Shown in pieces: positions 43,303 to 61,979 of a stretch of DNA of 64,000 nucleotides. This DNA is from Alphaproteobacteria bacterium (lineage in GTDB: Bacteria > Pseudomonadota > Alphaproteobacteria > UBA7985 > JAUIBT01), in contig JAUIBT010000001.1 of the NCBI GenBank assembly GCA_030428255.1, forward strand, positions 1 to 64,000, in the 5' to 3' direction. Positions within the stretch are counted from its first letter, which is position 1; every line of letters starts with the position of its first letter. Made by a program: the position numbers and the translations under genes. The notes beneath the pieces were generated by a model. That model made no database searches, was not told where the DNA came from, and saw nothing but the letters and a program-made list of their open reading frames with translations.

Positions 43303-43352
43303 TTTTCATTCTTGCAGACGGCTTACTCACAAATCCTTGGAGGGGACACAGC

Positions 43353-44435: not shown

Positions 44436-44445
44436 GGAGGATCAC

Positions 44446-45225
44446 ATGAGCGACGACATCATTCTGGAAACCCGCGATCTGACCAAGCACTATGGCGGTG
44501 TTCATGCGCTGGAGGGAGCCAACTTCACGCTGCGCAAGGGCGAGCACGTGGCCATCATGGGCGACAACGGTGCGGGCAAATCCACCTTCGTGCGGCAGAT
44601 CACCGGCGTTGAACAACGCACCCGCGGCGAGATCTTCTTTGAAGGCAAGCCAGTGCATTTCGCGGGCCCCTTGGACGCGCGCGAAGCGGGCATTGAGACC
44701 GTGTTCCAAACCTTGGCATTGGCAGATGACTTGGATGTGCCGGACAACATCTTTCTTGGGCGGGAAATGACCCGTTGGGATTGGCTCGGCCCCTTCCGTT
44801 TGCTGAACTACAAGGGCATGCGCGATGCAACCTTGGCTGGCCTGGAGAAAACCGCCGTTAAGATCCCGAACATCAACAATGCTATTCGCAACATGTCAGG
44901 CGGTCAGCGCCAGTGTGTCGCCATCGCACGAACGGCTTCATTCCACTCGCGCCTGACCATCATGGACGAACCAACAGCAGCGCTGGGCGTCCAGGAGACC
45001 GCGCAGGTCGAGAACATCGTCCGCACGCTTAAAGAAGTGGGCGAACCTTTGATCCTCATCAGCCACAATATGCGCCAGGTTTTTGACCTTGTGGATCGCA
45101 TCGTTGTCTTCCGCAGAGGCCGCATTTGCGCAAATCTGAAAAAGGAAGAGACCGACGGCCAGGATGTCGTGGCCTACATCACCGGTGCAAAGACGCAGCC
45201 GGAGTACGCGGAAACAGCCGCCTAG
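44446..45225 (+). CDS. Sugar/inositol ABC importer ATPase, single domain
   Basis: 259 residues, one nucleotide-binding domain: Walker A GDNGAGKST (about 39-47), signature MSGGQRQCVAIAR, Walker B LTIMDEPTAALG and the H-loop LISHNM. Ribose-type importers usually have a tandem 500-residue ATPase; this is the shorter FrcA-like type that works as a homodimer. AAGGAGG precedes the ATG. It is the last gene of the importer operon. Confidence 0.9.
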   Translation: MSDDIILETRDLTKHYGGVHALEGANFTLRKGEHVAIMGDNGAGKSTFVRQITGVEQRTRGEIFFEGKPVHFAGPLDAREAGIETVFQTLALADDLDVPDNIFLGREMTRWDWLGPFRLLNYKGMRDATLAGLEKTAVKIPNINNAIRNMSGGQRQCVAIARTASFHSRLTIMDEPTAALGVQETAQVENIVRTLKEVGEPLILISHNMRQVFDLVDRIVVFRRGRICANLKKEETDGQDVVAYITGAKTQPEYAETAA

Positions 45226-45652
45226 CGCCAGCCGCGAGATCGGAACGTCCAGGCTTGGCGATGCGGGTGGCCAAGTCTGATCCCGGCAATCTCACACAAC
45301 AATCTACCCGTGGCTTCCCTGGGGAAGCCTCTTGTCAGCCTGTGGGGGCCTCAGATGGAACGGCAAGGGTTCACCCAGGCTGGTTCACCTTAGGCCTCCC
45401 TTTTTTTATCGCTCAGCCGCAAAGGCACAAGTGTCAGCAGGCCAGTGGCCAAACGTCCCGGCGCCGACCCAGAATGTCGGCACAAACCCGCGCCTACCCT
45501 CAAAGCATAATGTTCAATTTTGCTGAAGTCGATATAAGTGATTTGCCATTGAATGAAGTTACAAGCTAGCATAGGCTTATCACTGGTCTAGCCGTCTGGG
45601 CCCTCTGGTAGGGCGCAAACGGCGTCGTGAGACCACCATTTGGGAGGAAAAT
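45226..45652. other. Intergenic region between the two ABC importers
   Basis: 427 bases with no credible gene. It contains a tight hairpin GGCTTCC/GGAAGCC (45312-45329) and a GGGGGCCT/AGGCCTCCC pair ending in seven T (45344-45407), a likely terminator for the inositol importer. The 3' part, AT-rich around 45500-45580, should carry the promoter of the betaine-type importer; no clear boxes chosen. Confidence 0.6.
45312..45407 (+). terminator. Probable termination region of the inositol importer operon
   Basis: Two elements: a seven-pair hairpin GGCTTCC-CCTG-type-GGAAGCC at 45312-45329, and GGGGGCC...GGCCTCC around 45344-45400 directly followed by TTTTTTT (45401-45407). The second has a long loop, so efficiency is uncertain. 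Confidence 0.5.
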
Positions 45653-46627
45653 ATGTCAAAAATTACTAAACTTGTCGCCGGTCTGGCGACTGCAGCAGCT
45701 GTGACTGCTGGAACCTCTGCCTACGCTGAATGCGGCGAGGTGTCGATCACCGAGATGAACTGGGCATCGTCGCAGATCATCACCGAAGTCTCTAAGTTCC
45801 TGATGGAGCAAGGCTACGGCTGTAGCGTCGAGAAAGTTCCTTCGGCGACCACCACCTCTGTGGCATCGCTGGCTGAAAACGGCGAGCCGGACATCGTGAC
45901 CGAGCTTTGGCTCAACTCGACCGGCGCGGTCTATGCCAAGCTGGAAGAGGAAGGCAAAGTGAAGCGTCTGGCCGATGTCTTCGATCCAGGTGGCGTTGAA
46001 GGTTGGTGGATTCCAAACTACTTGGCTGAAGCGCATCCCGAGCTGACCACTATCGAAGGCGTTCTAGCGAATCCTGACCTGGTTGGCGGTCGTTTCAACA
46101 ACTGTCCTGACGGCTGGGGCTGTCGCATCGTGAATGACAACCTGGCAAACGCCCTGGGCATGCGTGACAAGTTGGAGGTCTTTGACCACGGCTCTGGCGA
46201 GACCCTGGCGACTTCAATCGCTGCGGCGTATGAGAACAAAGAGCCTTGGTTCGGATATTACTGGGGCCCGACTGCGGTTCTGGGCAAGTATGGCATGACC
46301 AAAGTGACCATCGGTGACGTTGATGCCGACATTCACACCGCCAACCAGAACGCAGACAACGCCAACCCCGGTGTGTCCGACTTCCCTGCGGCTCCGGTTC
46401 TCACGGTTGCTACCGCGGACCTGACCGAGCGTAACCCAGACGTTGCCGAACTGATGAGCAACGTCAGCTTTGACATCCACCTGCTGAGCTCTGTCTTGGC
46501 TTGGAAAGATGCCAACAACGCGTCGGCCGAAGAAGCTGCCGTTTACTTCCTGACCAACAACTCTGATGTTTGGTCTGGTTGGGTGAACGACGCTGCTCGC
46601 GAAAAGCTGTCAGCTTTGATCAACTAA
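45653..46627 (+). CDS. Glycine betaine/proline-type ABC importer substrate-binding protein (OpuAC family)
   Basis: 324 residues with a signal peptide (SKITKLVAGLATAAAVTAGTSAYA, likely cleavage after AYA). The mature domain is a type 2 binding protein of the quaternary-amine family: ITEMNWASSQIITEVSKFLME, DIVTELWLNSTG, EGWWIPNYLAE, GYYWGPTAVLGKYG and a C-terminal WVNDAAREKLS. Tryptophans suited to a betaine cage are present (W38-, W-rich GGVEGWW). GGGAGGA precedes the ATG. It begins a three-gene importer. Substrate could be betaine, proline betaine, choline or carnitine. Confidence 0.85.
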   Translation: MSKITKLVAGLATAAAVTAGTSAYAECGEVSITEMNWASSQIITEVSKFLMEQGYGCSVEKVPSATTTSVASLAENGEPDIVTELWLNSTGAVYAKLEEEGKVKRLADVFDPGGVEGWWIPNYLAEAHPELTTIEGVLANPDLVGGRFNNCPDGWGCRIVNDNLANALGMRDKLEVFDHGSGETLATSIAAAYENKEPWFGYYWGPTAVLGKYGMTKVTIGDVDADIHTANQNADNANPGVSDFPAAPVLTVATADLTERNPDVAELMSNVSFDIHLLSSVLAWKDANNASAEEAAVYFLTNNSDVWSGWVNDAAREKLSALIN

Positions 46628-46979
46628 GTCCAAGGGACGGGCGGCCTGCACTTTGGTCGCCCAAACTTAACAGCGGCTCTTCTTTCGTGAGGAGCCGCAG
46701 TTTTGCCCGCACGGTATCGCCGAGCGCACATCAAGCGTGAGGCCCCTGGGTCAAACAGGTCAGGTGGGGCCCATTGAGAAACCCACGGCCATGCTTAGCC
46801 TGCTATTCGTGGACTCGCGAAATTTGCTCTAGGGGCCCGCCGATGCCAAGGTTTTGGCGCGCGTCGCCGCGTTTTGACCCGCAGCCTTTGTCTGTTGACT
46901 ACAAATTGCTTTGAGCGGTCTTGGGCCGCTGGCTCTGCGCAAGGCGCGAGCCCTGCTTGCCACTAAAGGAATATCCCCT
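46628..46979. other. Intergenic region between binding protein and permease
   Basis: 352 bases, no gene. It contains a hairpin GCGGCTC/GAGCCGC followed by TTTT at 46673-46704, annotated separately. The rest shows nothing I can name; an open frame starting at 46911 is the extended permease frame. Confidence 0.6.
46672..46704 (+). terminator. Hairpin between betaine-type binding protein and permease genes
   Basis: GCGGCTC (46673-46679) pairs with GAGCCGC (46692-46698) over a 12-base loop, followed by A-G-TTTT. It probably acts as a partial terminator, the same design as in the inositol importer upstream. Confidence 0.65.
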
Positions 46980-48011
46980 ATGGCGACTTATGACTTCCTG
47001 TTTGATGCTCTTGGATTGCGCGCTTGGTGTGACAGCGGCAAATCCGCCGATGGTCCCGTATCTATGGCCGACCTGCTGGCCAAGACCGGAAAAACCACAG
47101 AGACCACGATCTGGGATCTGCCTTTTCCCTCGCTAGACTCCCTGAATGACGCCTGTGGCGCCATTGCTCAGTCGCGCGACCTAACCAAGGGTGTTGGCGA
47201 TGGGTTCTTGGCCATCAAAGGTGTGCTGCGGTTTGTGCTGGATCCGCTTACCCAACCATTGAGCTGGATTCTGGACGGCACCTTGTCTGCATTTGAAGCC
47301 GCGCCTTGGTGGATCATGTTCCCCGTATTGATGGTTGTTGTTTTTGTCGCCTCAAAATCGCTGCGCCTGGTTGGTTTCGTGACAGCCTGTTTAGCGCTTC
47401 TGGCCTTCATCGACCACTACGATCACGCCATGCAAACCTTGGCGATTATCTTTGTTTGTGCCTTCTTATGCGTCCTGCTTGGGGTTCCGATCGGCATTGC
47501 CATGTCCCGCAACGATCGCCTACAGCGCGTAACGATCCCTATTCTAGACATGCTGCAGACGCTGCCGCCTTTCGTGTATCTGATCCCGCTGATCTTCTTG
47601 TTCTCGGTCACTGAGCCCAAACTCTACGGCATCGCGATTATCCTCTACGCCATCGTGCCAGTTGTGCGCCTGACCGATCTTGGCATCCGACTTGTTGATA
47701 AGGACGTGATCGAGGCCGCCGATTCCTTTGGCATGACCGATAGTCAAAAGCTGTTCGGTGTCCAGATCCCCTTGGCGCTGCCGAACATCATGGCCGGCGT
47801 CAACCAAACCATCATGATGAGCCTGGCAATGGTGGTGATCGCCTCGCTGGTTTCTGCACCTGGCCTAGGCGTCTTGGTCTTGCGCGGAATTCGCAACCTT
47901 GAGCTTGGCGTCGGTCTGGTTTCAGGCCTTGGCATCGTATTGCTGGCGATCATTCTTGACCGTGTAACAAAGGCTGCGCTTGACCGCGTTAACGCAGCTC
48001 AAAAGCAATAA
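46980..48011 (+). CDS. Glycine betaine/proline-type ABC importer permease (ProW-like)
   Basis: 343 residues. A hydrophilic N-terminal part of about 110 residues precedes six to seven membrane segments in the ProW/OpuAB layout. The EAA-like loop is DKDVIEAADSFGMTDSQKLFGVQIPLALPNIMAG. TLPPFVYLIPLIFLFSV and VVIASLVSAPGLG are family-typical. The start ATG at 46980 follows AAAGGA by ten bases. The ATPase gene begins 16 bases after the stop. Confidence 0.88.
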   Translation: MATYDFLFDALGLRAWCDSGKSADGPVSMADLLAKTGKTTETTIWDLPFPSLDSLNDACGAIAQSRDLTKGVGDGFLAIKGVLRFVLDPLTQPLSWILDGTLSAFEAAPWWIMFPVLMVVVFVASKSLRLVGFVTACLALLAFIDHYDHAMQTLAIIFVCAFLCVLLGVPIGIAMSRNDRLQRVTIPILDMLQTLPPFVYLIPLIFLFSVTEPKLYGIAIILYAIVPVVRLTDLGIRLVDKDVIEAADSFGMTDSQKLFGVQIPLALPNIMAGVNQTIMMSLAMVVIASLVSAPGLGVLVLRGIRNLELGVGLVSGLGIVLLAIILDRVTKAALDRVNAAQKQ

Positions 48012-48026
48012 TGTGAGGGCAGACAG

Positions 48027-49088
48027 GTGAGCAAGAAGATCAAAATCTCCATCAGCAAGCTCTACAAGATCTTTGGCCAAGACCCAAAGGCTGCCCTTGA
48101 GCACGTTTTGGCAGGAACCGGGAAGTCGGAGCTCTTGGCCAAGCACGAGCATGTCTTGGGGCTTCAAGACATCAATGTCGACATGCAAGAGGGCGAGATT
48201 ACCGTCATCATGGGCCTGTCTGGCTCTGGTAAATCGACGCTCATTCGCCACCTCAATCGCTTGATCGAGCCCACCTCGGGCAAGGTTGAAGTCGATGGGC
48301 GCGACGTGCTGGGCTACAACGAAGAAGAGCTTCGAAATCTGCGTCGTGAAACCATGTCGATGGTGTTCCAGAAGTTTGCCCTGTTGCCTCACCGTACCGT
48401 GGCTGAGAACGCTGGCACAACGCTAAAAGTCCGCGGTGTTCCCCGCGCCACCTATCTGGCAGAAGCAGCCAAGTGGCTGGAGCGTGTGGGCCTGAAGGGC
48501 TTTGGCAACCACTACCCGCATCAGCTTTCGGGCGGTATGCAACAACGCGTCGGCATTGCGCGCGCGCTGACTTCGAATGCGCCGATCATGCTGATGGACG
48601 AGGCCTTTTCGGCGCTCGATCCGCTGATCCGCACCGATATGCAAGACCTGCTGCTTGAGCTGCAGGCCGAGTTGCACAAGACCATCGTTTTCATCACGCA
48701 CGACCTAGATGAAGCGCTGAAGCTGGCTGACCATTTGGTGATCTTGAAGGATGGCTACGTTGTTCAGCAAGGCGAGCCGCAAGACATCTTGCTGAACCCC
48801 AATGATCCTTACATCGAAGATTTCGTGAGCGACATCAACCGCGCGCGCGTCTTGCGGGTACGCTCGATCATGACGCCCTTGCAAGATGGACAGGTCCCGG
48901 CCGACGCGCATGGCGAAGTCGATTTCGACGACACGCTAGAGAGCATGATCGCCAAGTCCGGCGGCGACACGTCGCACTCTTATGTCGTAACCCGCGATGG
49001 GCAAGCCGTGGGCACGCTGGAGATGACCCACTTGGTCAAGGCTTTGGTGCCGCGCGCAGCGTCAGAGGCTGGCGCGCGCAAGTACTAG
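48027..49088 (+). CDS. Glycine betaine/proline-type ABC importer ATPase (ProV-like)
   Basis: 353 residues. Walker [10 protein letters not shown] (63-71), signature [15 protein letters not shown], Walker [14 protein letters not shown] and H-loop FITHDLDEA. The N-terminal extension [10 protein letters not shown] is typical of ProV/OpuAA. The C-terminal 70-80 residues resemble a shortened CBS region, the osmosensing part in OpuA. The start is GTG, with GAGG upstream. It is the last gene of the importer. Confidence 0.9.
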
Positions 49089-49380: not shown

Positions 49381-49779
49381 CTAGCGATCCAGCACCGCTG
49401 TCGCCTCGATCTCGACCAGGGCTTCATCTTCAACCAAAGCGCTGACCACCACCATGGTCATAGCCGGAAAATGGCGGCCCAGGACGCGACGGTAGGCTTG
49501 GCCGACCTCGCTTTGGCGCGCGAGATAGTCAACCTTATCGGTCACGTACCAGGTCAATCGCACCAGGTCGCTGGCCTGGCCACCGGCCGCCTCAACAATC
49601 GCCAATATGTTCTTAAGCGCCTGTTCCATCTGACCCACAAAATCTTGGGCGCGAAACGTCTGGGTCTCGTCCCAGCCGATTTGCCCGCCAACGTACAAAG
49701 TCCCGTCCTTGGCCAGCACGCCGTTGGCATAGCCCTTAGCTGGCGTCCAGCCCTCGGGCTGAATGATCTGGTTCAACAC
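49381..49779 (-). CDS. RidA family protein (enamine/imine deaminase-like)
   Basis: 132 residues with GTG start at 49779, three bases after the thioesterase stop, preceded by AAAGGA. RidA/YjgF hallmarks: LYVGGQIGWDETQ, the QMEQALKNILAIVEAAGG helix, VRLTWYVTD and FPAMTMVVVSALVEDEALVEIEATAV, with the family Glu near the C-terminus. The Arg that binds carboxylate in canonical RidA (R105) is not obvious, so this may belong to one of the Rid1-7 subgroups. It is the last gene of the anthranilate operon, where hydrolysis of an enamine or imine CoA intermediate is an attractive role. Confidence 0.85.
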   Translation of the reverse strand: MLNQIIQPEGWTPAKGYANGVLAKDGTLYVGGQIGWDETQTFRAQDFVGQMEQALKNILAIVEAAGGQASDLVRLTWYVTDKVDYLARQSEVGQAYRRVLGRHFPAMTMVVVSALVEDEALVEIEATAVLDR

Positions 49780-49781
49780 CT

Positions 49782-50186
49782 TTACGATCCTTTCGATTGG
49801 TCGGCCAATAAGCTTCGCACAGCCTCTGGCCATGCGGTTGGGCGACCGTTTGCGTCCACAAAGACAAGAGTTGATTGTGAGGCAAAGCGGGTTTCATCAC
49901 CACAGCGCGCCTCAACACTGATCTGCAAACTACTGCGCCCCACCCTTTGGCAGTTCAGTTCTAAGATGAGCAAATCACCGATCCGGCTCGGCCGTCGAAA
50001 CTGGGTTTGAATTTCTGCCGTCGGCACGCCGCCTTGAGTGTGAAGTTTCGCAAAAGGCAGCCCCAGCACCTGATCAAAGAAAGCCTCCACGCAATCGTTA
50101 ATCATCTCAAAATAGCGCGGGTAGAAGACAATCCCAGCGGGGTCGCAATGGCGAAACAAAACGGCTTGTTCAAACAGAAACGCCAT
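49782..50186 (-). CDS. Hotdog-fold acyl-CoA thioesterase (4-hydroxybenzoyl-CoA thioesterase family)
   Basis: 134 residues, one 4HBT domain. The catalytic Asp lies in RHCDPAGIVFYPRYFEMIND, the HxxCDPxGIxFYxxY pattern of 4-hydroxybenzoyl-CoA thioesterases. It lies two bases after livF and just before the RidA gene in the aromatic operon. It may release CoA from stalled aromatic or ring-reduced CoA esters. Confidence 0.85.
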   Translation of the reverse strand: MAFLFEQAVLFRHCDPAGIVFYPRYFEMINDCVEAFFDQVLGLPFAKLHTQGGVPTAEIQTQFRRPSRIGDLLILELNCQRVGRSSLQISVEARCGDETRFASQSTLVFVDANGRPTAWPEAVRSLLADQSKGS

Positions 50187-50188: not shown

Positions 50189-50878
50189 TTAGACCCCCAG
50201 ATACCGGTCGGTAATGTCGGCGTTTAGGTCCGCGAAGTCGCCAGACCAGACCGAGCGCCCTTTGTCCAAAATCACCGCCGTATCTGCGACCGCGGACAGC
50301 TCGCGAATGGACTTGTCGATCACCAGAATCGCCATGCCGGTTTCAGCCTTCAGGCGCGCAATGGCTGCCCAGATTTCTTGCCTTACAACCGGTGCCAGCC
50401 CCTCCGTTGCCTCGTCCAAAATCAGCACGCGTGGGTTGGTCATTAACGCTCGCGCAATCGCCAGCATCTGCTGCTCGCCGCCGGACAAAGAGGCCGCCCG
50501 CTGGTCCTTGCGCTCGTCCAGTCGCGGGAACAACGCGGCCACCGAGGCCAAATTCCAGTCACCCGGCCGCGCCGCTGCGATCAAGTTCTCACGCACGCTT
50601 AGGCTGGAAAAGCAGCGCCGCCCTTCAGGCACAAGGCCGATGCCGAGCCGTGCCGCTTGATAGGCCGGCCGCCGGCCTAGGTCCTGGCCATCAAACATCA
50701 GCGTACCGCCGCGATGCTTCAGCAACCGGCAAATGACCTTCACTGTTGTCGACTTTCCCATGCCATTACGCCCCATGAGCGCCAGCACTTGCCCGTCGGC
50801 AAGGCTCAGATGCACGTCAAACAGCGCTTGGCTGGCCCCATAGAAGGCTGAGATATGAGAGAGCTTGAGCAGGCTCAT
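50189..50878 (-). CDS. Branched-chain-type ABC importer ATPase LivF-like
   Basis: 229 residues: Walker A GRNGMGKST (36-44), signature LSGGEQQMLAIARAL, Walker B VLILDEATEGLAP. The short LivF form with LVPEGRRCFSSLSVRENL is typical. It overlaps livG-like by four bases. Substrate is expected to be an aromatic acid, from operon context. Confidence 0.9.
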   Translation of the reverse strand: MSLLKLSHISAFYGASQALFDVHLSLADGQVLALMGRNGMGKSTTVKVICRLLKHRGGTLMFDGQDLGRRPAYQAARLGIGLVPEGRRCFSSLSVRENLIAAARPGDWNLASVAALFPRLDERKDQRAASLSGGEQQMLAIARALMTNPRVLILDEATEGLAPVVRQEIWAAIARLKAETGMAILVIDKSIRELSAVADTAVILDKGRSVWSGDFADLNADITDRYLGV

Positions 50879-51633
50879 GACCTGGCCTCCTCTTCGCCCA
50901 GATAGGCCGCGCGTACCTGCGGATTGGCTCGAATTTCTTCGACCGTTCCAGTTGCAATGATGCTGCCATAGACCAAGACGCTTATGCGATCAGCAAGCTG
51001 GAACACTGCGTCCATATCGTGCTCCACCAGCAAAATGGGCGCGCGTTGGCGCAAGGTATCCAAGAAGCCCATCAAGCGGCGCGAGCCCTCCATGCCCAGG
51101 CCCGCCATGGGCTCGTCCATCAAGAATATCTTGGGCGCAAGGGTCAGGGCAACCGCGACCTCAAGCTGGCGACGCTGGCCGTGCGACAGCTCAGAGGTGC
51201 GCATGTTCTGCATTTCCTCCAACCCCACCTCAACCAGCGCGGCGCGCGCCTGCGCCAGCAGTTCGCGGTCGCGCATAACAGGCCGGAAAAAGCGAAACAC
51301 CGTACCGCGACGCCCTAGCGCGCCTAGCACCACGTTTTGAAGCACGCTGTAGTCCATCGCCAGCGAAGAGATTTGGAAGGTCCGCCCCATGCCCAAACGC
51401 GCCCGGGCCGCCGTCGTCAAGGCGGTCACATCTTGGCCGTCAAACACGACGCTGCCGCTGTCTGGCTGCAAACCGCCTGCGATCTGCTTGATCAGGGTGG
51501 ACTTGCCCGCCCCATTGGGCCCGATCAGTGCATGGATCTCGCCAGGCCTGACATCAAGATTTATGCCCTCACTGGCCACAAGCGCACCGAAGCTTTTGGA
51601 AACATTGCGGATGTCCAAAACGGGCTCAGTCAT
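50875..51633 (-). CDS. Branched-chain-type ABC importer ATPase LivG-like
   Basis: 252 residues: Walker A GPNGAGKST (38-46), signature LSHGQRRQLEVAVAL (His replaces the usual Gly, as often in LivG), Walker B IFLMDEPMAGLG, and LVEHDMDAVF with the switch His. It overlaps the permease gene by eight bases. Confidence 0.92.
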   Translation of the reverse strand: MTEPVLDIRNVSKSFGALVASEGINLDVRPGEIHALIGPNGAGKSTLIKQIAGGLQPDSGSVVFDGQDVTALTTAARARLGMGRTFQISSLAMDYSVLQNVVLGALGRRGTVFRFFRPVMRDRELLAQARAALVEVGLEEMQNMRTSELSHGQRRQLEVAVALTLAPKIFLMDEPMAGLGMEGSRRLMGFLDTLRQRAPILLVEHDMDAVFQLADRISVLVYGSIIATGTVEEIRANPQVRAAYLGEEEARS

Positions 51634-52681
51634 GGGCCGCCTCCCGCCCTGTCAGCATGCCGTAGAGCCCACCGCGCGCAAACAGAACCACGCCCAAGAG
51701 GATTGCCCCCAAGTAGACGTGCCAATAGTCGCTGAGACCGCCCAAGCTATGCTCGAGCAAGATGAACAGCGCCGCCCCGGCGACCGGTCCAAACACGCGG
51801 CCCACGCCGCCCAGAATGACGAACACCATAATCTCACCCGAGGTCTGCCAAGAGAACATGGTCGGGCTGACAAACCGATTGAGGTCAGCAAACAGGGCCC
51901 CAGCCAACCCAGTGATGGAGCCTGAAATCATAAAAGCGATTAGATAGAGCCGATAGGGCATCTGGCCCACAGCTTGCACCCGCTCCTCATTTTGCCGCGC
52001 TGCTCCCAGCGCGAGCCCGAACGCCGAGCGCGCTAAGAACTTGACCAGCAGCAGCACCAAGATCAGCAGCACAAAACAGATGGCGAAGAACTGGATCGGT
52101 GCCATGGTGTTTAGCCCGGGGAAGCTGTTACGCACATAGATCGACAAGCCGTCCTCACCACCATAGGCGGGCCAGGAGATGGCGAAATAATAGAGCATCT
52201 GGGCAAAGGCCAGGGTGATCATAATGAAATAGACGCCCGATGTGCGCAGGCTGAGCGCGCCGATGCCCAGCGCCAACAGGGCCGATAGCAAGATAGCAAC
52301 CAGCCAAATCACCAGCATGGACCGGCTGCCTTCGATGACAAAAGGCCAGTCGAGCAAGGCTGTGTAGGTCTGCGCGTGGTAAGCCAAGACGCCCATAACA
52401 TAGCCGCCAAGGCCAAAGAACGCGGCGTGGCCCAAGCTGACCAGCCCGCCGAAGCCCAAGGCAAAGTTCAGCCCGACCCCTGCAATGGCAAAGATGACCG
52501 CGCGGGTGGTCAGCGTGATCAAGAATGGCTCGTCGGCGAACCAGGCCCAAAGTGGAACCGCCAGCAAAGCCAGCATCAGGGCTGCATTCAATAGCACCTC
52601 GGGTTTGGCCGCTTTGAAGCCTGCCAGAACGACGGTCTTAAAAGCCAAAGGGAACTGAGCGGCGTCGGGCTGGATTTTCAT
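51626..52681 (-). CDS. Branched-chain-type ABC importer permease LivM-like
   Basis: 351 residues, about nine to ten membrane segments. GFGGLVSLGHAAFFGLGGYVMG and ALGAARQNEERVQAVG (cytoplasmic coupling loop) are LivM signatures, as is GGVGRVFGPVAGAAL. The ATG at 52681 has GGGAG eight bases upstream; a TTG five codons earlier is possible. It follows the LivH gene by one base. Confidence 0.9.
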   Translation of the reverse strand: MKIQPDAAQFPLAFKTVVLAGFKAAKPEVLLNAALMLALLAVPLWAWFADEPFLITLTTRAVIFAIAGVGLNFALGFGGLVSLGHAAFFGLGGYVMGVLAYHAQTYTALLDWPFVIEGSRSMLVIWLVAILLSALLALGIGALSLRTSGVYFIMITLAFAQMLYYFAISWPAYGGEDGLSIYVRNSFPGLNTMAPIQFFAICFVLLILVLLLVKFLARSAFGLALGAARQNEERVQAVGQMPYRLYLIAFMISGSITGLAGALFADLNRFVSPTMFSWQTSGEIMVFVILGGVGRVFGPVAGAALFILLEHSLGGLSDYWHVYLGAILLGVVLFARGGLYGMLTGREAAHD

Positions 52682-52682: not shown

Positions 52683-53600
52683 TCATGCGCTCCCAAACAG
52701 GCCTCTGGGGCGGAACAACAGCACGGCCGCCATCAGTAAGTAGATCGACATGGAGGCCAATGAGGCGCCGACTGAGATGGCTGCAGAAGGTTCCATCAAA
52801 AGCTTGAAAAATTCGGGCAACAAGAAGCGGCCTAGCGTTTCGGTTAATCCCACCAACAGCGCGCCGACAAAGGCCCCCTTGATCGAGCCAATGCCGCCAA
52901 TCACGATGACGACGAAGGCGAGAATCAGAACGGGCTCCCCCATACCCACTTGCACCGACTGGATCGCGCCAATCATCGCACCGGCAAAGCCGGCCAGGGC
53001 CGCGCCCAGCGCAAAAACGAAAGTGTAGAGCAGGGAAATATTGACGCCTAAGGCCGCGATCATCTCGCGGTCATTCTCTCCAGCACGGATGCGAATTCCG
53101 ATGCGGGTGCGCGCTATCATCCAGAACAACCCAAGCGCCACAGCCAGACCGACCAAGATGATGGCTAAGCGATACACCGGATAGACGATGCCAAAAGGCA
53201 AGGTCACCGTACCGCCCAACCAGGCGGGCGTATCAAGAAACAGCGGAAATGAGCCGAAGACCCAGCGCGTACCCTCGGAAAAAATCAGGATCAGTGCGAA
53301 GGTGGCGAGCACTTGTTCCAGGTGGTCGCGCTCATAGAGTCGTCGGATCACCAGCACCTCGATCAGTACGCCAGCAAAGGCGGCGCAGACCAAGCTTGCC
53401 ACCAAACCCAACAAAAAGGAACCGGTCGCACCCGCGACCGCTGCGGCCGCAAAAGCGCCCACCATATAGAGCGAACCATGCGCCAGGTTGATCAGCCCCA
53501 TGACCCCAAACACCAAGGTCAAACCGGCTGCCATCAAGAACAGCATGACACCGAACTGGAGCCCATTGAGGGTCTGCTCAGCCAGGAGAGTAAACGACAT
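52683..53600 (-). CDS. Branched-chain-type ABC importer permease LivH-like
   Basis: 305 residues, about eight membrane segments. It starts LLAEQTLNGLQFGVMLFLMAAGLTLVFGVMGLINLAHGSLYMVGA, a LivH hallmark pattern, and carries RIGIRIRAGENDREMIAALGVN (coupling loop) and GGIGSIKGAFVGALLVG. It lies 56 bases after the binding-protein gene. Confidence 0.92.
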   Translation of the reverse strand: MSFTLLAEQTLNGLQFGVMLFLMAAGLTLVFGVMGLINLAHGSLYMVGAFAAAAVAGATGSFLLGLVASLVCAAFAGVLIEVLVIRRLYERDHLEQVLATFALILIFSEGTRWVFGSFPLFLDTPAWLGGTVTLPFGIVYPVYRLAIILVGLAVALGLFWMIARTRIGIRIRAGENDREMIAALGVNISLLYTFVFALGAALAGFAGAMIGAIQSVQVGMGEPVLILAFVVIVIGGIGSIKGAFVGALLVGLTETLGRFLLPEFFKLLMEPSAAISVGASLASMSIYLLMAAVLLFRPRGLFGSA

Positions 53601-53656: not shown

Positions 53657-54793
53657 TTACATCTTGCAGTCGGCTGCGTAGACGTCTGCATGATTCTCAA
53701 GCGCAAGGCCGATAATCTTGTTGGTGAAGACGTCACCTTCCTTGATGACCTCACGCACGTAGATGTTTTGGATCGGGTGGTGGTTGCTCGCGAAAGCGAA
53801 ATCACCGCGCGTGCTAGCGAAGTCTGCCGCCTCAAGCGCAGCGCGGAAAGCGTCGGCGTCCGCCACGTCAGCCTTGCCCATGGCGCTGATCAACAGGTTT
53901 GCAGTGTCAAAGCCCTGGCTGGCGTAGAGCGACGGCAGACGCCCATACTCAGCCTGGAAGCTTGCAACAAAGGCCGCGTTGGTGGCGTTGTCGATGTCCT
54001 TGTTCCACTGCGAGGTGTTCTTAACGCCCAAAGCTGCTTCACCGACAGCCTGCAAAATGCCTTGGTCAAAACTGAAGGCAGGTCCAACAACCGGCAGACC
54101 CAGGCCAGAGCCTGCGTACTGCTTTAAGAAGGAGATGCCCATGCCGCCCGGCAGGAAGAAGAAGACACTATCCGCGCCGCTGGCACGAATTTGTGCGATC
54201 TCACCCGCGTAGTCGGTCTGGCCCAACTTAGTGTAGATTTCGCCCGCCAAGTCGCCCTTATAGAAGCGCTTGAAACCGGTCAGAGCGTCGGTGCCAGCCG
54301 GGTAGTTAGGTGCCAAGATGAAGGTCTTGCCGTGGCCAGCGCCATTGGCGTAGGCACCGGCAGCCTCGTGCAGGTTGTCGTTCTGCCAAGCCACGTTGAA
54401 GTAGTTTTTGTTACACCCCTTGCCAGCAAGCTGAGACGGGCCAGCATTGGGTGACAGGTAGAACTTGCCCTGCGCCACGACGCCAGGAACGACGGCCATG
54501 GCCAGGTTGGACCAAATAATGCCCGTCAACACATCAACCTTTTCAGATTGGATCATCTTGTCGGCCAACTGGACGGCGACATCGGGCTTGCGCTGATCGT
54601 CCTCGATCACGACCTCAATATCGCTGCGCCCTGACTGAGCGACCGCCAACATGAAGCCGTCGCGCACGTCAATGCCCAGGCCCGCGCCGCCGCCGGACAA
54701 GGTGGTAATCATGCCCACCTTGACGCCTTCGGCCTGCGCACCAGCAGCCACAGCAACAAAGCCTGCTGCCAAAAGAAGAGATCTCATTTTCAT
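53657..54793 (-). CDS. Branched-chain-type ABC importer substrate-binding protein (aromatic acid-type)
   Basis: 378 residues with signal peptide (MRSLLLAAGFVAVAAGAQAEG, cleavage likely after AQA). It is a type 1 periplasmic binding protein of the LivJ/K group: VGMITTLSGGGAGLGIDVRDGF, LTGIIWSNLAMAVVPGV, FNVAWQNDNLHEA and SVFFFLPGGMGISFLKQY. GGGAGGA precedes the ATG. Encoded directly after the 2-aminobenzoate-CoA ligase, so anthranilate or a related aromatic carboxylate is the likely ligand. Confidence 0.85.
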   Translation of the reverse strand: MKMRSLLLAAGFVAVAAGAQAEGVKVGMITTLSGGGAGLGIDVRDGFMLAVAQSGRSDIEVVIEDDQRKPDVAVQLADKMIQSEKVDVLTGIIWSNLAMAVVPGVVAQGKFYLSPNAGPSQLAGKGCNKNYFNVAWQNDNLHEAAGAYANGAGHGKTFILAPNYPAGTDALTGFKRFYKGDLAGEIYTKLGQTDYAGEIAQIRASGADSVFFFLPGGMGISFLKQYAGSGLGLPVVGPAFSFDQGILQAVGEAALGVKNTSQWNKDIDNATNAAFVASFQAEYGRLPSLYASQGFDTANLLISAMGKADVADADAFRAALEAADFASTRGDFAFASNHHPIQNIYVREVIKEGDVFTNKIIGLALENHADVYAADCKM

Positions 54794-54853: not shown

Positions 54854-56476
54854 TTAGTCGTGCCGCTCGCGCAGGGCGAAGCGTTGGATTTTGCCGGTTG
54901 CCGTTTTGGGCAAACTCGGCTGGAACCGCACAGAGCGTGGGTACTTGTACGGCGCGATGGTTGCCTTGACGTGGTCTTGCAGCTTTTTCTTCAGCGCGTC
55001 AGAGGCCTCAAAACCCTCCGCCAAGACGACGTGAGCCTCGACAATTTGACCACGCTCGGGGCTGGGCGCGGCCACGACGGCGCACTCAGACACCGCCGAG
55101 TGCGAAAGAAGAGCTGCCTCCACCTCGGGACCAGCAATGTTGTAGCCCGACGATATGATCATGTCATCATTTCGTGCTGCGAAATGAAAGTAGCCCTGCG
55201 CGTCCTGCCAGAAGCTGTCGCCGGTGATGTTCCAGCCATCCTTGACATACTTGGCTTGGCGAGCGTCGTTCAGATAGCGGCAGCCCGTCGGCCCGCGCAC
55301 TGCCAGGCGCCCCACCTCGCCGCGCGCCACATCCTGCATGTCGGCGTCGACCACCCGCGCCTCATAGCCAGAGACAGGCCGACCAGTGCAGGCGGGCCGT
55401 GCATCCTCAAAGCGATTGGTGACGAAGATATGCAGCATTTCGGTCGCCCCGATGCCATCCAGCATGGGCTTGCCGGTCTGCGCTTGCCAGGCCTCATAGA
55501 TGGGCGACGGCAAGGTCTCGCCAGCGGAGACCGCAGCGCGCAAACTGGAGAGGTCCGCGCCTTCGTCCATGGCGGTTAGCATGACCTTATAAGCCGTCGG
55601 AGCCGTGAAGCAGACCGTCGCCTTATAGGTCTCGATGATCTCGATCATGTTTTGAGGGGTGGCGGCTTCCAGCAAGGTCGCCGCCGCTCCGAAGCGCAGC
55701 GGGAAGACTGCCAGCCCGCCAAGGCCAAAGGTGAAAGCCAAGGGCGGCGAGCCGACAAACACGTCCTGGGGCGTGACCTTCAAGACCTCGCGGGCATAGC
55801 CGTCAGCGATGATCAACAGGTCGCGATGAAAGTGCATGGTGGCCTTAGGCGCGCCCGTGGTGCCAGAGGTAAAGCCCAGCAAGGCCACGTCGTCTCGCCC
55901 GGTCTTAACTGCCTCGAACTTGACTGATTTTTGCAGCGCGATACGGTCGAGCTCCGCGTCGTGGTTTGAGGTGCCGTCGAAGCCCACCACCGTTTTAAGG
56001 AAGGCACTGGCCTTAGCGCAGCGCGCCATCTCGTCCATCAGCCGGGTATCGCACAGCGCGTGGCTGATCTCGGCCTTATCAACGATCTTGCTCAGCTCAC
56101 CGGCGCGCAGCATGGGCATGGTGTTGACCACTACAGCGCCAGCCTTGGTCGCGGCCAGCCAACAGGCCACCATAGCTGGATTGTTGGCAGAGCGGATCAG
56201 CACGCGATTGCCAGGCTGAATCCCAAAGTCTTCGACCAAAGCGTGGGCCAAACGGTTGGTCCAGTCGCTCAACTCCTTGTAGGTTCGCTGGCGGCCGTTG
56301 CCAATCAAGGCGGTATTGTCGCCAAAGCCCTTGTCCACCATAGCATCGGTCAGCTCGACCGCTGCGTTCAGGTATTCGGGATAGTCAAAGCCATCCAGCA
56401 GGAAATCTGGCCACTGGTCTGCTGGTGGCAAGCCATCTCTAGCAAAGGTGTCGATGTGAGCCGTTGGTCCCAGCAT
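54854..56476 (-). CDS. 2-aminobenzoate-CoA ligase (benzoate-CoA ligase family)
   Basis: 540 residues of the ANL superfamily. It shows the P-loop LLGFTSGTTGAPKATMHFHRD near residue 195, YKVMLT, IGATEMLHIF (A5), ITGDSFWQDAQGYF (A7) and the C-terminal acylating Lys in PKTATGKIQRF. The TMHFHRD extension of the P-loop and GATEMLHIF are typical of benzoate/2-aminobenzoate-CoA ligases. It activates anthranilate to 2-aminobenzoyl-CoA, the substrate of the monooxygenase/reductase at the operon head. It starts three bases after the acyl-CoA dehydrogenase stop. Confidence 0.85.
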   Translation of the reverse strand: MLGPTAHIDTFARDGLPPADQWPDFLLDGFDYPEYLNAAVELTDAMVDKGFGDNTALIGNGRQRTYKELSDWTNRLAHALVEDFGIQPGNRVLIRSANNPAMVACWLAATKAGAVVVNTMPMLRAGELSKIVDKAEISHALCDTRLMDEMARCAKASAFLKTVVGFDGTSNHDAELDRIALQKSVKFEAVKTGRDDVALLGFTSGTTGAPKATMHFHRDLLIIADGYAREVLKVTPQDVFVGSPPLAFTFGLGGLAVFPLRFGAAATLLEAATPQNMIEIIETYKATVCFTAPTAYKVMLTAMDEGADLSSLRAAVSAGETLPSPIYEAWQAQTGKPMLDGIGATEMLHIFVTNRFEDARPACTGRPVSGYEARVVDADMQDVARGEVGRLAVRGPTGCRYLNDARQAKYVKDGWNITGDSFWQDAQGYFHFAARNDDMIISSGYNIAGPEVEAALLSHSAVSECAVVAAPSPERGQIVEAHVVLAEGFEASDALKKKLQDHVKATIAPYKYPRSVRFQPSLPKTATGKIQRFALRERHD

Positions 56477-56479: not shown

Positions 56480-57634
56480 TTAGTCTCCCCCAAACGCTGA
56501 CAAAGCCTGACGTGCGATCACGACGCGCTGCACGTCCGAGGCCCCTTCGTAGATACGCAAAGCACGAATATCGCGGTAGAGCCGCTCGACAGTCTGGCCC
56601 GACTTCACCCCGTCACCGCCATGAAGTTGCACCGCTTTGTCGATCACCTGCTGCGCCTGTTCAGTGGCGAACAGCTTGGCCATGGCGGCCTCGCGAGTGA
56701 CTCGCGCTGCGCCGCTGTCCTTGGTCCAAGCCGCGCGATAGACCAGGAGCGCGCTGGCATCCACATCCAGCGCCATATCGGCGATGTGGCCCTGCACCAT
56801 CTGCAAATCAGCCAGAGGCGCGCCTTGCACATGGCGCTGGATGACCCGCGCTAGGGCTTCATCCAACGCCCGACGCGCGAAGCCCAGAGCTGCCGCCGCC
56901 ACGGTCGAGCGGAACACATCCAGCACCGACATGGCGATCTTAAAGCCCTCGCCCGGTTGGCCAATCAGCGCCGAAGCCGGGATGCGGCAGTCCTCGAACT
57001 GCAGGCGGGCGAGCGGGTGTGGCGCGATGGTCTCCAGCCGCTCGACGATGCTGAAGCCTGGCAGGCCAGCGGGCACAACAAAGGCTGACAGCCCCCGCGC
57101 ACCGGGTGCCTCGCCCGTGCGGGCGAAGAGGGTATAGACATCGGCGATGCCACCGTTGGAAATCCAGGTCTTTTCGCCGTTCAACACATAGTCCGCCCCG
57201 TCTCGCGTTGCGGTCATGGTCGAACTGGCGACATCCGAGCCCGACTGTGGCTCGGTCAGGGCAAAGGCCGATATGGCCTTGCCCGCGCGGGTCAACGGCA
57301 ACCAAGCCTGCTTTTGCTCCAAGCTGCCGAACTGACTGATTGCGCCGGTGCCCAGACCCTGCATGGCAAAGGCGAAATCGGCCAGGCCGTCGTGACGCGC
57401 CAGGGTCTCACGGATGAGGCAGAGGCTGCGCACGTCCAAACCGCCGTCCGGCGCGCCTGAGTGCTGCAAAAAGCCCGCCGAGCCCAGGGCTGACACCAAC
57501 CGGCGGCAGGCCGCATCGGTGTCGCTGTGATCGACCGCGGCCAATGCCGGTCCGGCCCAAGCCTCAAGCTCTTGCGCCAAATCCCGGTGGCGGTCGTCAA
57601 AAAAAGGCCAGCTTAGAAAGGACTGATCGGCCAT
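56480..57634 (-). CDS. Acyl-CoA dehydrogenase family protein
   Basis: 384 residues in the standard fold: [23 protein letters not shown] (FAD-binding loop), [36 protein letters not shown], and [38 protein letters not shown] at the C-terminus with the catalytic-position Glu of YEGASD. The ATG at 57634 overlaps the hydratase stop (TGATG). Probable role: oxidation of a ring-reduced or ring-opened CoA ester in anthranilate degradation. Confidence 0.88.
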
Positions 57635-58446
57635 CACTTGCCCTCAAACACGGGTTTTTGCTTGGCGACAAACGCGTGATAGGCGCGCTCGAAGTCGCCT
57701 GTCTGCATGCAGATCGCCTGTGCCTGAGCCTCAGCTTCGATGGCCTGTTCAAGGCCCATGTTCCACTCTTGGTTCAACTGGGTCTTGGTGATGCCGTGGG
57801 CAAAGGTCGGTCCGGCCGCAAGGCGCTCTGCCAAGTTGCGCGCTGCCTCCTCCAGGGCGTCGCTGACGTGCAAGCTGTTCCAAAAACCCCAGCGTTCGCC
57901 CTCGTCTGCGCTCATCGAGCGCCCGGTATAGAGCAGCTCAGCCGCGCGGCCTTGGCCGATAATGCGGGGCAGCATGGCGCAAGCCCCCATATCACAGCCC
58001 GCCAGCCCAACACGAGTGAACAGGAAGGCGCACTTGGCCTCTGGCGTGGCCAGGCGTAGGTCTGAGGCCATGGCGATGATGGCGCCTGCACCGACGCAGA
58101 TGCCGTCCACCGCTGCAATAATGGGTTTGCCGCAACCGATCATGGCCTTAACCAGATCACCGGTCATGCGCGTAAAGTCCAGCAGCCCCTTCATGTCCAT
58201 GGCCACAAGCGGGCCGATAATCTCGTGGACATCGCCGCCCGAACAGAAATTTCCACCATTCGAGGCGAAGACGACCACATCCACATCCTCGGCATAGACC
58301 AGTGCGCGGAAGGTATCGCGCAGCTCGGCGTAGCTGTCGAAGGTCAGCGGGTTCTTGCGGTCAGGCCGATCGAGGCGGATCGTGGCGATGCGATCCTTGC
58401 AGTCCCAGACAAAATGCTGGGGCTTGAGGTCAGACAGACGGGTCAT
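57634..58446 (-). CDS. Enoyl-CoA hydratase/isomerase family protein
   Basis: A 270-residue crotonase-fold protein. Oxyanion-hole segments are [16 protein letters not shown] and [27 protein letters not shown], followed by [22 protein letters not shown]. The start at 58446 has AAGGAG upstream; the open frame to 58524 is antisense-like and overlaps MarR. The MarR gene overlaps it by 17 bases. It may hydrate or hydrolytically open the alicyclic CoA intermediate. Confidence 0.87.
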
Positions 58447-58936
58447 CGGATGCTCCTTCCATGTGGCGCAGCAAATCGCGCAGGCTATCCAGCTCTTCAT
58501 GGCCAAAGCCCGCCAGCAAGGCATTGACTTCGGCCTCGTGGGCCTCGGCCACCTCGGCGAACCAGGCCCGGCCCGCCTCAGTCAGGCTGACCAGCACGCC
58601 GCGCCGGTCTGCTGGATCAAGCCGCCGTTCGGCCAGTCCATCCTTTTCCAAACGGCTGACCACTGTGGTGGTGTTGCCGTTGGACACCAGCAGCATAAGG
58701 CTCAGCTCGCTCATGTTCATCGGGCGCTCGCTGCGGTAGAGCGCGGCGGCCACGTCAAAGCGCGGCAGCGTGGTATCATAGCGCAAACGCAAGAATTCGC
58801 GTAATTGCTGCTCGGTTCTGTGCGTCGCCCGCAACAAGCGAATCCAGGTGCGCAGGCGGCGGCGCGACAAGGAGGTGTCGCGGCTAGCGCGCACGACTGG
58901 CTCGGCGCCCACAGGGTTTCGCATTGCCTGGCTCAT
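58430..58936 (-). CDS. MarR-family transcriptional regulator
   Basis: 168 residues. It has a winged helix: [41 protein letters not shown] (recognition helix around [13 protein letters not shown]) and the [16 protein letters not shown] wing. It is encoded inside the operon it probably controls, overlapping the SDR stop by four bases and the hydratase start by 17. MarR relatives of aromatic pathways usually respond to the aryl-CoA; a likely site lies at 62044-62063. Confidence 0.9.
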
Positions 58937-59688
58937 ATTTCACCGCCTGAGATGGGGATCGCTTGGCCGTTGATGCCTTCGCTGCCAGGCTGGCAGAGCC
59001 ACAGGGCCGCCGCCGTGACCTCCGCCGGTTGGATCAGGCGACCTTGCGGATTGTTGGCTGCCAAGGTCTTGCGCACCGCCTCGCTATCCATGCCGGTCTT
59101 CTCGACGATGGTCGCCACAGAACGGTCGGTCATCTCGGTATCCAAAAAGCCCGGACACAGCGCATTTACGGTTATATCTTTGCGCGCCACTTCAAGTGCA
59201 AGCGCGCGAGTCAGCCCCACCACGCCGTGCTTGCCCGCCACATAGGGTGCCACGTAGGGATAACCCTTGAGCCCTGCGGTTGAGGCGATCGAGATCAGCC
59301 GTCCCCAGCTGCTCATTTGCGTCAAACCTTGCCGCAGGGTCAAAAAGACGCCGGTCAGGTTGACCGCCAACATAGCGTTCCAGTCCTGCAGCGAGGTGCG
59401 TGTCAGCGGCGCGCTTGAGGCCGCGCCTGCGTTAGCGATGACGATATCGACCGGACCCGCTGCCTGGAACAGAGCTTGGACGTCGGCTTCTTGGGTAACG
59501 TCGGCTTGCAGAGCGCGGATGTTTTGCGCCTCCTGGGCAACCGCTTCTAAGGGCTCGGCGCGACGCCCGGCGATCACCACCGCTGCGCCCTGCCCTGCGA
59601 AGCCGCGCGCCAGATCAGCGCCAACGCCTGTGCCGCCGCCGGTAATCAAAACGCTCCGTCCTGTCAGTGTCCCCACGATCTGGCTCAT
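58933..59688 (-). CDS. Short-chain dehydrogenase/reductase of the anthranilate operon
   Basis: 251 residues: cofactor motif [23 protein letters not shown] (instead of NNAG), catalytic Ser in [11 protein letters not shown], and [10 protein letters not shown] with Tyr and Lys; C-terminal [16 protein letters not shown]. It overlaps the monooxygenase/reductase stop by four bases (ATGA). It probably oxidises or reduces a hydroxyl/keto group of a cyclohexene-carboxyl-CoA intermediate. Confidence 0.88.
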
Positions 59689-61979
59689 ACGCGCAGTGTC
59701 TCCTGGGCGCGCTCCTGCAAGCGCCGCGCCTGGTCCCGGCCGGCCAAGTAAGGATCAGGCCAGCGCGTCTGAACGTCGCCCAGGGCCACCGCTGCATGCA
59801 AAGTCCAATAGGGATCGGCCAAGTGCGGCCGTGCCAAGCAGACCAAATCTGCGCGTCCGGCCATCAGGATTGAGTTGGCGTGATCGGGCTCGTAGATATT
59901 GCCAACCGCCATGGTCGGCATGTTCAGCTCGTTGCGAATGCGGTTGGAAAACGGGGTTTGGAACATCCGGCCATAAACGGGCTGCGCTTCAATGCTGGTC
60001 TGCCCTGCCGACACGTCGATAATGTCGGCGCCCGCTTCGCGGAACATAGCCGCGATCTTGACCGCCTCCTCTGGTGTGACGCCCGCCTCACCGACCCAAT
60101 CGTTCGCTGAGATCCGCACTGACATGGGCTTGCCCGTGGGCCAAGCCGCGCGCATAGCCCGCATGACCTCCAGCGGATAGCGCATGCGGTTGTCCAGGCT
60201 GCCGCCGTAGGCGTCCTGGCGCGTGTTGGATACCGGTGAAATGAACGACGATATCAGATAGCCGTGCGCGGCGTGCAGCTCGACCATATCAAAGCCCGCA
60301 CGGGCCGCCATCTTGGTTGAGGCCACGAACTGATCGCGCACCTCATCCATGTCCGCACGGCTCATCTCGCGCGGCACGGCATTGTTAGGCGACCAGGCAA
60401 TGGCCGAAGGCGCGATGATGTCCCAGTTGCCCTCTTTCAGCTGAGCCTCGGAATCCTCCCACCCCAACTGGGTCGAAGCTTTGCGGCCCGCGTGCCCGAT
60501 CTGGCAGCAGATCTTAGCGTCGGTTTCCTGGTGCACAAAATCGGTGAGCCGCCTCCAGGCCGCCTCGTGCTCAGGCGCATAGAGGCCCGGGCAGCCTGGC
60601 GTAATGCGTCCAATTGGCGAAACACAGGTCATCTCAACATAGACCAGCCCGGCCCCGCCCTTGGCGCGCTCGGCATAGTGGACGAAGTGCCAGTCAGTCG
60701 GGCAGCCATCCACCGCCTTATATTGCGCCATGGGCGAGACCACGATGCGGTTCTTAAGCTGCATATCGCCAAGCTGATAGGGCGCGAACATAGGCGCGCG
60801 CACGGGGGCGTCTTCCGGCACCCCGGCTTGGGTTTGGAACCAGCGCTCGGCCGTCTGCAGCCAGGCCGGATCGCGCAGCCGCAAGTTCTCGTGGCTGATG
60901 CGTTGCGAGCGGGTCAACAGGTTATAGTTGAACTGCACCGGGTGTTGATCCAGGTAGCGCTCGACCTCTTCGAACCACTCCAGCGAGTTGCGCGCCGCAG
61001 ACTGCAAGCGCAAGACCTCCAGGCGGCGCTCGTCCTGATAGCGCTCAAAAGCTTGTTCAAGGCTAGGCTCAGTGTGCAGGAAATTGGCCAGCGCGATTGC
61101 GCTGTCAAAGGCCAAGCGCGAGCCCGAACCAATCGAAAAGTGGCCTGTGGCCGCAGCGTCGCCCATCAACACCACGTTCTCGTGGTACCACTTGCCGCAA
61201 ATCACCCGCGGGAAATTCATCCATACCGCCGAACCGCGCAGGTGGGCTGCGTTGGACATCAAAGGGTGGCCGCCTAGGTGACGCTCAAAAACTTTGCGGC
61301 AGGTCTCAACGATCTCCTCCTTGCTCATGTCCGCAAAGCCAAAGGCGTCCCAAGTGGGCTGCAGACACTCGACGATGAAAGTCGCGGTCTTGTCGTCAAA
61401 TTGATAGACGTGGGCCCACATCCAGCCCTGGGGCGTCTTTTCAAAAATAAAAGTGAAGGCGTCGTCGAACTTCTGGTGGGTGCCGAGCCACACGAACTTG
61501 CACAGTCGCGTATCAATGTCGGGCTGAAACTCGGCCTCGTATTCGCGGCGAACCAGCGAGTTGATGCCGTCAGCGGCAACCACCAAGTCGTAGTCCTTGC
61601 GATAATCTTCAGCCGACTTGAATTCAGTTTCGAAGGCCAGCGTCACACCCAACTCGCGCGCACGCTCTTGCAGCAGAACCAGCATTTGTTTGCGCCCGAT
61701 GCCCGCAAAGCCATGACCGCCGGAAACCGTGCGCACTCCGTTGTGCTCGACCGCGATGTCATCCCAATAGGCAAAGTGGTCGCGAATGGCCTGGGTGGAC
61801 TTGGGATCGTTCTCTTGCATCTGGCCCAGGGCGTCGTCTGACAGCACAACGCCCCAGCCGAATGTATCGTTGGCCTTGTTGCGTTCCAGAACCGTCACAT
61901 CGTGGCTTGCGTCGCGCAGCTTCATAGAGATGGCGAAGTAGAGACCAGCCGGACCGCCCCCCAGACAGATGATCTTCAT
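59685..61979 (-). CDS. 2-aminobenzoyl-CoA monooxygenase/reductase (bifunctional; salicylyl-CoA 5-hydroxylase-like)
   Basis: A 764-residue fusion. Residues 1 to about 380 form a class A flavoprotein monooxygenase ([13 protein letters not shown] at 7-19; [19 protein letters not shown]). From about 400 an Old-Yellow-Enzyme domain follows ([56 protein letters not shown]). This exact domain pair is known from the 2-aminobenzoyl-CoA monooxygenase/reductase of Azoarcus evansii, which hydroxylates and then reduces the ring, and from annotations as salicylyl-CoA 5-hydroxylase. The ATG at 61979 follows AAGGAGGAGG. It heads a 13-gene operon whose ligase supports 2-aminobenzoate over salicylate. Confidence 0.88.

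Follow-up and report, generated by a model that had tools for sequence, protein, structure and literature searches.

A Rid-family protein with methionine at the catalytic arginine site as the probable deaminase of the aerobic anthraniloyl-CoA pathway

Which enzyme removes the nitrogen of anthranilate once the ring has been activated as a CoA ester and dearomatised? In the literature searched, no enzyme was assigned to the deamination step of the anthraniloyl-CoA pathway. The question is raised by the window, a stretch of 64,000 nucleotides from an alphaproteobacterial contig that contains an operon for this pathway. A preliminary description of the window had placed a Rid gene and a 4HBT-type hotdog thioesterase gene at 49381-50186 and had proposed both products as missing steps of the pathway. 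Both genes were confirmed there on the minus strand with Pfam scores over the cut-offs.

The operon consists of 13 genes on the minus strand, starting from 61979. It is headed by a fusion flavoenzyme, hereafter the fusion enzyme, and its last two genes encode the thioesterase and the Rid protein. The genes are listed below in their order from the head of the operon.

59685..61979, minus strand: 2-aminobenzoyl-CoA monooxygenase/reductase, a flavin monooxygenase fused to an Old Yellow Enzyme domain (NF006101, 1258 bits, over the cut-off of 1078; PF00724 and PF01494)
58933..59688, minus strand: short-chain dehydrogenase (PF00106)
58430..58936, minus strand: MarR-type regulator (PF12802)
57634..58446, minus strand: crotonase-fold protein of the PRK08258 family (NF006107, 491 bits, over the cut-off of 330)
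56480..57637, minus strand: acyl-CoA dehydrogenase (PF00441)
54854..56476, minus strand: aryl-CoA ligase, a 2-aminobenzoate-CoA ligase candidate (benzoate-CoA ligase family TIGR02262, 367 bits, slightly below the cut-off of 375)
53657..54793, minus strand: ABC transporter substrate-binding protein (PF13458, 251 bits)
52683..53600, minus strand: ABC transporter permease 1 (open reading frame; cluster relatives)
51626..52681, minus strand: ABC transporter permease 2 (open reading frame; cluster relatives)
50875..51633, minus strand: branched-chain-type ABC transporter ATPase 1 (open reading frame; cluster relatives)
50189..50878, minus strand: branched-chain-type ABC transporter ATPase 2 (open reading frame; same order in cluster relatives)
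49782..50186, minus strand: 4HBT-type hotdog thioesterase, 134 aa (PF03061, PF13279)
49381..49779, minus strand: Rid-family protein of the Arg105-to-Met class, 132 aa, GTG start, proposed CoA-thioester enamine deaminase (PF01042)

The thioesterase reading frame stops with TAA at 49784-49782, and the most likely start of the Rid gene is the GTG at 49779, 2 bases past this stop and immediately preceded by AAAGGA. An alternative in-frame ATG of the Rid reading frame at 49833 would overlap the thioesterase gene. The next downstream gene (48027-49088) lies on the opposite strand, so the Rid gene closes the operon directly after the thioesterase gene, as had been described. Promoter and terminator scans around the thioesterase and Rid pair gave nothing above chance. 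A tryptophan dioxygenase gene is present in the window's genome. From their translations, one flank of the operon (37518-49088) carries a sugar-type ABC transporter/oxidoreductase cluster and a glycine-betaine-type ABC transporter, and the other (62105-64000) carries a DeoR-type regulator and a TRAP-type transporter gene.

The product of the last gene matched PF01042 at 79.5 bits (cut-off 27.3) and stayed below the NCBIfam cut-offs of TIGR00004 (59.5 versus 106 bits), RutC (41 versus 169) and PRK11401 (35 versus 222). Its AF2 monomer model had a mean pLDDT of 95.1 and the Rid alpha+beta fold; the model gave 178 PDB matches at E<=0.001, the best of which was RutC (3v4d, TM 0.82). Met107 of the window protein occupies the Arg105 site of RidA, and Met was found at this site in 127 of 130 distinct class members. 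E. coli RidA, TdcF, RutC and YoaB have Arg at site 105 in the same alignment. Glu123, the equivalent of RidA Glu120, was kept in 129 of the 130, and Tyr17, Trp36 and Trp77 in 128 each. The near-invariance of Tyr, Glu and the new putative pocket residues suggests a specific small-molecule site. The class formed one clade apart from the E. coli Rid proteins (tree support 97/96), in a tree where many inner forks are weakly settled and where the clade takes in some paralogs without linkage to the fusion enzyme.

In published work, Arg105 binds the carboxylate of the substrate, and RidA, Rid1-3 and RutC need it to hydrolyse imines (PMC4433059, PMC5619798, PMC8113886). All Rid proteins without Arg105 assayed to date were inactive, and an Arg-to-Ala exchange abolished the activity of RidA and RutC (PMC4433059, PMC8113886). 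For the subfamilies Rid4-Rid7, site 105 has been described as lacking Arg, with Trp in Rid4 and Rid7 and a variable residue in Rid5 and Rid6 (PMC4433059); the residue of the window protein at this site is Met. Judged by its sequence, the window protein is not a canonical RidA, and the published Arg105 rule predicts no imine-hydrolase activity for it. For this reason, the general argument of the preliminary description from enamine and imine hydrolysis by RidA proteins cannot simply be transferred to it. Met at site 105 as a marker of anthranilate clusters was also dropped, since paralogs unlinked to the fusion enzyme share it. A related Rid group (L222, L224-L229) mostly has Met at the Arg105 site, lacks Trp36 and is found apart from the fusion enzyme in several Alphaproteobacteria.

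The association of the Rid class with the fusion enzyme was surveyed at two scales. Among 80 loci of fusion-enzyme relatives, read to at most 10 kb per side, 56 contained a Rid gene. For all but two of the 24 Rid-less loci, the locus or contig runs out within the operon or near where it ends. One of the two uncut loci (L030) is rearranged, and the other (L017) has Rid elsewhere in its genome. A profile of the Rid class was then made from 25 Rid proteins of such clusters, and both proteins were sought in 385 genomes of the window's class and in 398 near-complete Pseudomonadota genomes. In the Pseudomonadota sample, 69 genomes had both, 2 the fusion enzyme only, none the Rid class only and 327 neither (Fisher p 9e-76), the genomes being not independent and the 71 fusion-bearing ones spanning 46 genera. 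In the class sample, whose genomes are likewise not independent, the respective numbers were 63, 7, 6 and 309 (p 7e-57). Some of the six class-sample genomes with a Rid match and no full fusion enzyme were split contigs or fringe paralogs. Five of the seven fusion-only genomes (G074, G232, G234, G358 and G035) had a locus that ends at a contig edge or were incomplete, and in G285 the Rid gene is truncated at the contig end. G239 has the fusion enzyme without the Rid class, and neither a contig end nor incompleteness accounts for it.

The two genes also occurred together when they were far apart, at distances of 1.81 Mb (G163), 0.98 Mb (G338), 0.86 Mb (G212), 0.54 Mb (G206) and 0.22 Mb (G386). 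In G163, Rid lies in an anthranilate operon beside kynureninase and tryptophan dioxygenase genes, and the fusion gene is located elsewhere. Since the coupling persists up to 1.8 Mb, linkage alone is no explanation for it. Genes for kynureninase and/or tryptophan dioxygenase adjoin many of the clusters, which speaks for anthranilate as the substrate. The laboratory strains Paracoccus denitrificans PD1222 and Ruegeria pomeroyi DSS-3 have both the fusion enzyme and this Rid. An IorA/IorB-like indolepyruvate ferredoxin oxidoreductase pair also recurs beside the fusion enzyme in clusters of both types (L040, L046, L049, L075, L246, L362-L364, L368, L380 and L382), the second type being the gentisate-type clusters described below.

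The two fusion-bearing Pseudomonadota genomes without the Rid class (G658 and G705) provided a natural control. In both, the fusion gene lies inside a gentisate cluster with a double-cupin dioxygenase and a fumarylacetoacetate-type hydrolase, and their families were sampled further. All 8 fusion loci that adjoin a gentisate dioxygenase gene were in genomes without the Rid class, and of 20 loci that do not adjoin one, 18 were in genomes with it (p 1.4e-5); the tree placed the two leftovers (G899 and G996) within a gentisate-type branch. The Rid class was absent from all 10 gentisate-branch genomes examined, and most of these keep the thioesterase. Contrasts within one genus were concordant (G705 versus G889 and G973; G977 versus G893). 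Besides Rid, the genes for the short-chain dehydrogenase, the crotonase and the dehydrogenase are missing from gentisate-type loci. Because these fusion enzymes lie in gentisate clusters, their substrate is probably the nitrogen-free salicylyl-CoA. In the fusion-enzyme tree, gentisate-type sequences fell into two distinct branches, each with full support and lying among enzymes of the anthranilate type; Rid was therefore probably lost twice, alongside an apparent switch to a nitrogen-free substrate.

A gentisate-linked fusion gene in a genome with Rid (L017, genome G751) was considered as a counter-example and rejected. A second fusion gene is present in this genome, whose Rid gene lies 24 kb from L017 in an operon for anthranilate that also holds kynureninase and tryptophan dioxygenase genes. 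L017 was counted neither way, as its fusion gene groups with that of the window on the tree. Of the two fusion genes of G751 (L017, L291 and L292), one is beside a gentisate dioxygenase gene and the other is alone on another contig. The NCBI name 'bifunctional salicylyl-CoA 5-hydroxylase/oxidoreductase' spans both kinds of cluster (L246, L247, L362-L364 and L380-L382). Gene content splits these loci into those with the Rid class and beta-oxidation genes and those with gentisate dioxygenase and fumarylacetoacetate-type hydrolase.

The survey clearly favours the Rid protein as the enzyme that probably removes the nitrogen, and a mechanism can be proposed. The ligase would convert anthranilate to 2-aminobenzoyl-CoA, which the fusion flavoenzyme would hydroxylate and reduce to the beta-enamino thioester 2-amino-5-oxocyclohex-1-ene-1-carbonyl-CoA, as published for the family. 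The Rid protein would hydrolyse the enamine C-N bond of this compound, giving 2,5-dioxocyclohexane-1-carbonyl-CoA and ammonia. A carbon-carbon hydrolase would then open this beta-keto thioester; its likely identity is the crotonase-fold protein in the window and a fumarylacetoacetate-hydrolase-type enzyme in Actinomycetota. Met may stand in place of the carboxylate-binding Arg because the substrate would be a thioester without a free carboxylate, and the two new Trp residues probably shape the pocket. With the pathway as proposed, we put at roughly two in three the probability that the gene at 49381-49779 specifies a Rid variant serving as deaminase in the aerobic anthraniloyl-CoA pathway. The earlier suggestion that Rid may release ammonia is thus kept in part: near-absolute co-occurrence, coupling of unlinked genes and loss with an apparently nitrogen-free substrate speak for it, and the identity with canonical RidA had to be given up. 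We lean, with less confidence, to the wider view that the Arg105-less class is an obligate enamine deaminase specific for CoA thioesters, with a pocket lined by Met and Trp, which would remove the nitrogen of anthraniloyl-CoA in several phyla and would have been lost whenever the flavoenzyme turned to salicylyl-CoA.

Published metabolite data are compatible with the proposed product. A CoA ester of C7H8O4 was found only in anthranilate-grown Arthrobacter Rue61a (PMC3534580); it fits the predicted deaminated dione, and a plasmid of this strain carries the Rid class. The sample was quenched with formic acid and handled at pH 3.5 (PMC3534580), so the C7H8O4-CoA ester could be an acid artefact. 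A further point against the proposed role is that RutC, a Rid enzyme encoded in a catabolic operon, can be dispensable in vivo (PMC8113886).

The strongest competitor, to which we give a minor share of the probability, is that the enamine hydrolyses spontaneously or in another active site and that Rid only quenches side products, e.g., a quinone imine from oxidised, released 5-hydroxyanthraniloyl-CoA. Known Rid proteins accelerate reactions that also run spontaneously (PMC8113886), and 5-hydroxyanthraniloyl-CoA is released under NADH limitation, according to work cited in PMC3534580. The absence of Rid from gentisate-type clusters would fit such a role too, because without nitrogen no imine arises. 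However, retention in 69 of 71 genomes exceeds the expectation for an accessory protein, and the product of the fusion enzyme is reportedly unstable only below pH 5 (PMC3534580), so that spontaneous hydrolysis at cell pH is probably slow. Rather improbable is a Rid protein that is catalytically dead without Arg105 and acts as a ligand-binding regulator or as a scaffold for the flavoenzyme or a CoA intermediate. It would agree with the lack of detected deaminase activity in the Arg-less Rid4-7 subfamilies (PMC4433059, PMC5619798), but the active-site Glu and Tyr are kept and the new putative pocket residues are near invariant. A simple scaffold is further opposed by the fact that Rid presence tracks the substrate nitrogen, the same flavoenzyme family occurring without Rid in gentisate-type clusters.

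Two further readings have very little weight. The hotdog protein, which adjoins the Rid gene, might itself act as a beta-aminoacyl-CoA ammonia lyase and so take off the nitrogen; the hotdog fold is that of beta-alanyl-CoA ammonia lyase, and both fold type and CoA-ester substrate are compatible. Against this, the protein has the Asp that acts as nucleophile in 4HBT enzymes, as do 86 of 86 relatives. Its distribution also speaks against such a role: many anthranilate clusters lack it, and most gentisate-type clusters, with no nitrogen to remove, have kept it. Least probable of all, the Rid gene could be a passenger of a mobile catabolic cluster. Such clusters are plasmid-borne in many Rhodobacterales, but Rid is kept even at distances of up to 1.8 Mb from the fusion gene and in phyla whose downstream genes differ, and it is specifically absent from two independent gentisate-type branches. 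Co-inheritance is disfavoured by these unlinked cases and paired losses.

The pairing of Rid and fusion enzyme is also seen beyond Pseudomonadota. Plasmids of Arthrobacter (pAL1 of Rue61a; ERGS1:01), Rhodococcus, Tsukamurella, Deinococcus psychrotolerans and Gemmatirosa carry the fusion enzyme and the ligase together with a Rid of this class or a close relative that has Met at the site. On a haloarchaeal plasmid (Natronosalvus), Rid is accompanied by a related fusion-like enzyme. The pairing thus occurs in Actinomycetota, Deinococcota, Gemmatimonadota and on a haloarchaeal plasmid. Actinomycetota clusters retain the ligase, fusion and Rid genes, with a fumarylacetoacetate-hydrolase-type gene and others in place of those for the dehydrogenase, the crotonase and the short-chain dehydrogenase. 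The predicted deamination product, a beta-keto thioester, would suit either type of carbon-carbon hydrolase. The Natronosalvus halobius plasmid (L213:5105-20049) encodes Rid, a 720-aa fusion-like flavin monooxygenase, a crotonase, acyl-CoA dehydrogenases and a thiolase, and a ligase was not detected within the 20 kb read. It also has the F420-related genes cofH, npdG and an LLM oxidoreductase, so this cluster is perhaps an F420-linked version of the pathway.

Characterized Rid enzymes offer partial precedents. RutC, the 3-aminoacrylate deaminase of the Rut uracil pathway (PMC8113886), is the best fold match, is encoded in an operon and shares the active-site Glu. Like the proposed substrate here, 3-aminoacrylate is a beta-enamino carbonyl compound from a flavin-dependent pathway that attacks the ring. 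Unlike the window protein, which has Met and a proposed CoA-thioester substrate, RutC depends on Arg104 and has a substrate with a free carboxylate. AmnE, the 2-aminomuconate deaminase (PMC6742747), is a Rid-family enzyme of aromatic catabolism that releases ammonia from an enamine, as proposed here, but its substrate is a free acid that arises once the ring has been cleaved, and it retains the conserved Arg as Arg117 (PMC6742747). RidA (YjgF) of Salmonella and E. coli, the 2-aminoacrylate deaminase, shares the fold and the Tyr17 and Glu120 equivalents; the window protein differs in Met for Arg105, in the new Trp36 and Trp77 and in its separate clade. In the section consulted, the published Rid context survey does not mention this cluster (PMC4433059).

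The 2-aminobenzoate clusters of Azoarcus evansii have the same pathway and fusion enzyme as the window. The abstract of Schuhle et al. (2001) on these clusters reportedly lists a 'putative translation inhibitor protein' with no function given; 'translation inhibitor' is an old name of Rid proteins. The Arg-to-Met class, the coupling and the gentisate contrast are reportedly not described there.

The hotdog protein scored over the cut-offs of PF03061 (43.4 versus 20.6 bits) and PF13279 (41.7 versus 25.5), and its nearest solved relative is 3ck1 (E 6.5e-26). Its catalytic Asp15 lies within HCDPAGIVF, which corresponds to the D-x-x-G-I-V motif of the gentisyl-CoA thioesterase, 4HBT class I and YbgC hotdog thioesterases, whose nucleophile Asp mechanism has been described (PMC516016). 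Unlike the YbgC enzymes, the window protein falls below the NCBIfam YbgC cut-offs (TIGR02799, 36.9 versus 141 bits; TIGR00051, 36.4 versus 68.7). For 81 of 131 Rid sequences, the gene was immediately preceded by a 4HBT reading frame (an approximate count, as some loci overlap), so the two are not chance neighbours. Apparent 4HBT-Rid gene fusions at L050, L071 and L038 were rejected as out-of-frame read-through in GC-rich DNA. Given its absence from many anthranilate clusters and its retention in most gentisate-type ones, the thioesterase is unlikely to be a step specific to the anthranilate nitrogen, and its earlier presentation as a missing step is withdrawn. It is best read, plausibly, as a dispensable enzyme that would free CoA from stalled or shunt esters such as 5-hydroxyanthraniloyl-CoA. 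In the benzoate box pathway, a thioesterase has likewise been suggested to rescue CoA (PMC6449761).

The survey yields one candidate for the nitrogen-removing step, with a strong genomic case and the gentisate-type contrast built in. If the proposed deaminase function is true, it would break the working rule by which Rid deaminases need Arg105, and Arg-less Rid proteins would gain their first testable function. It would also make this protein the first known Rid enzyme with an acyl-CoA substrate, within the literature searched. Furthermore, the Rid class on one side and gentisate dioxygenase on the other would serve as a gene marker that separates anthraniloyl-CoA from salicylyl-CoA pathways, whose fusion enzymes now share a single NCBI name.
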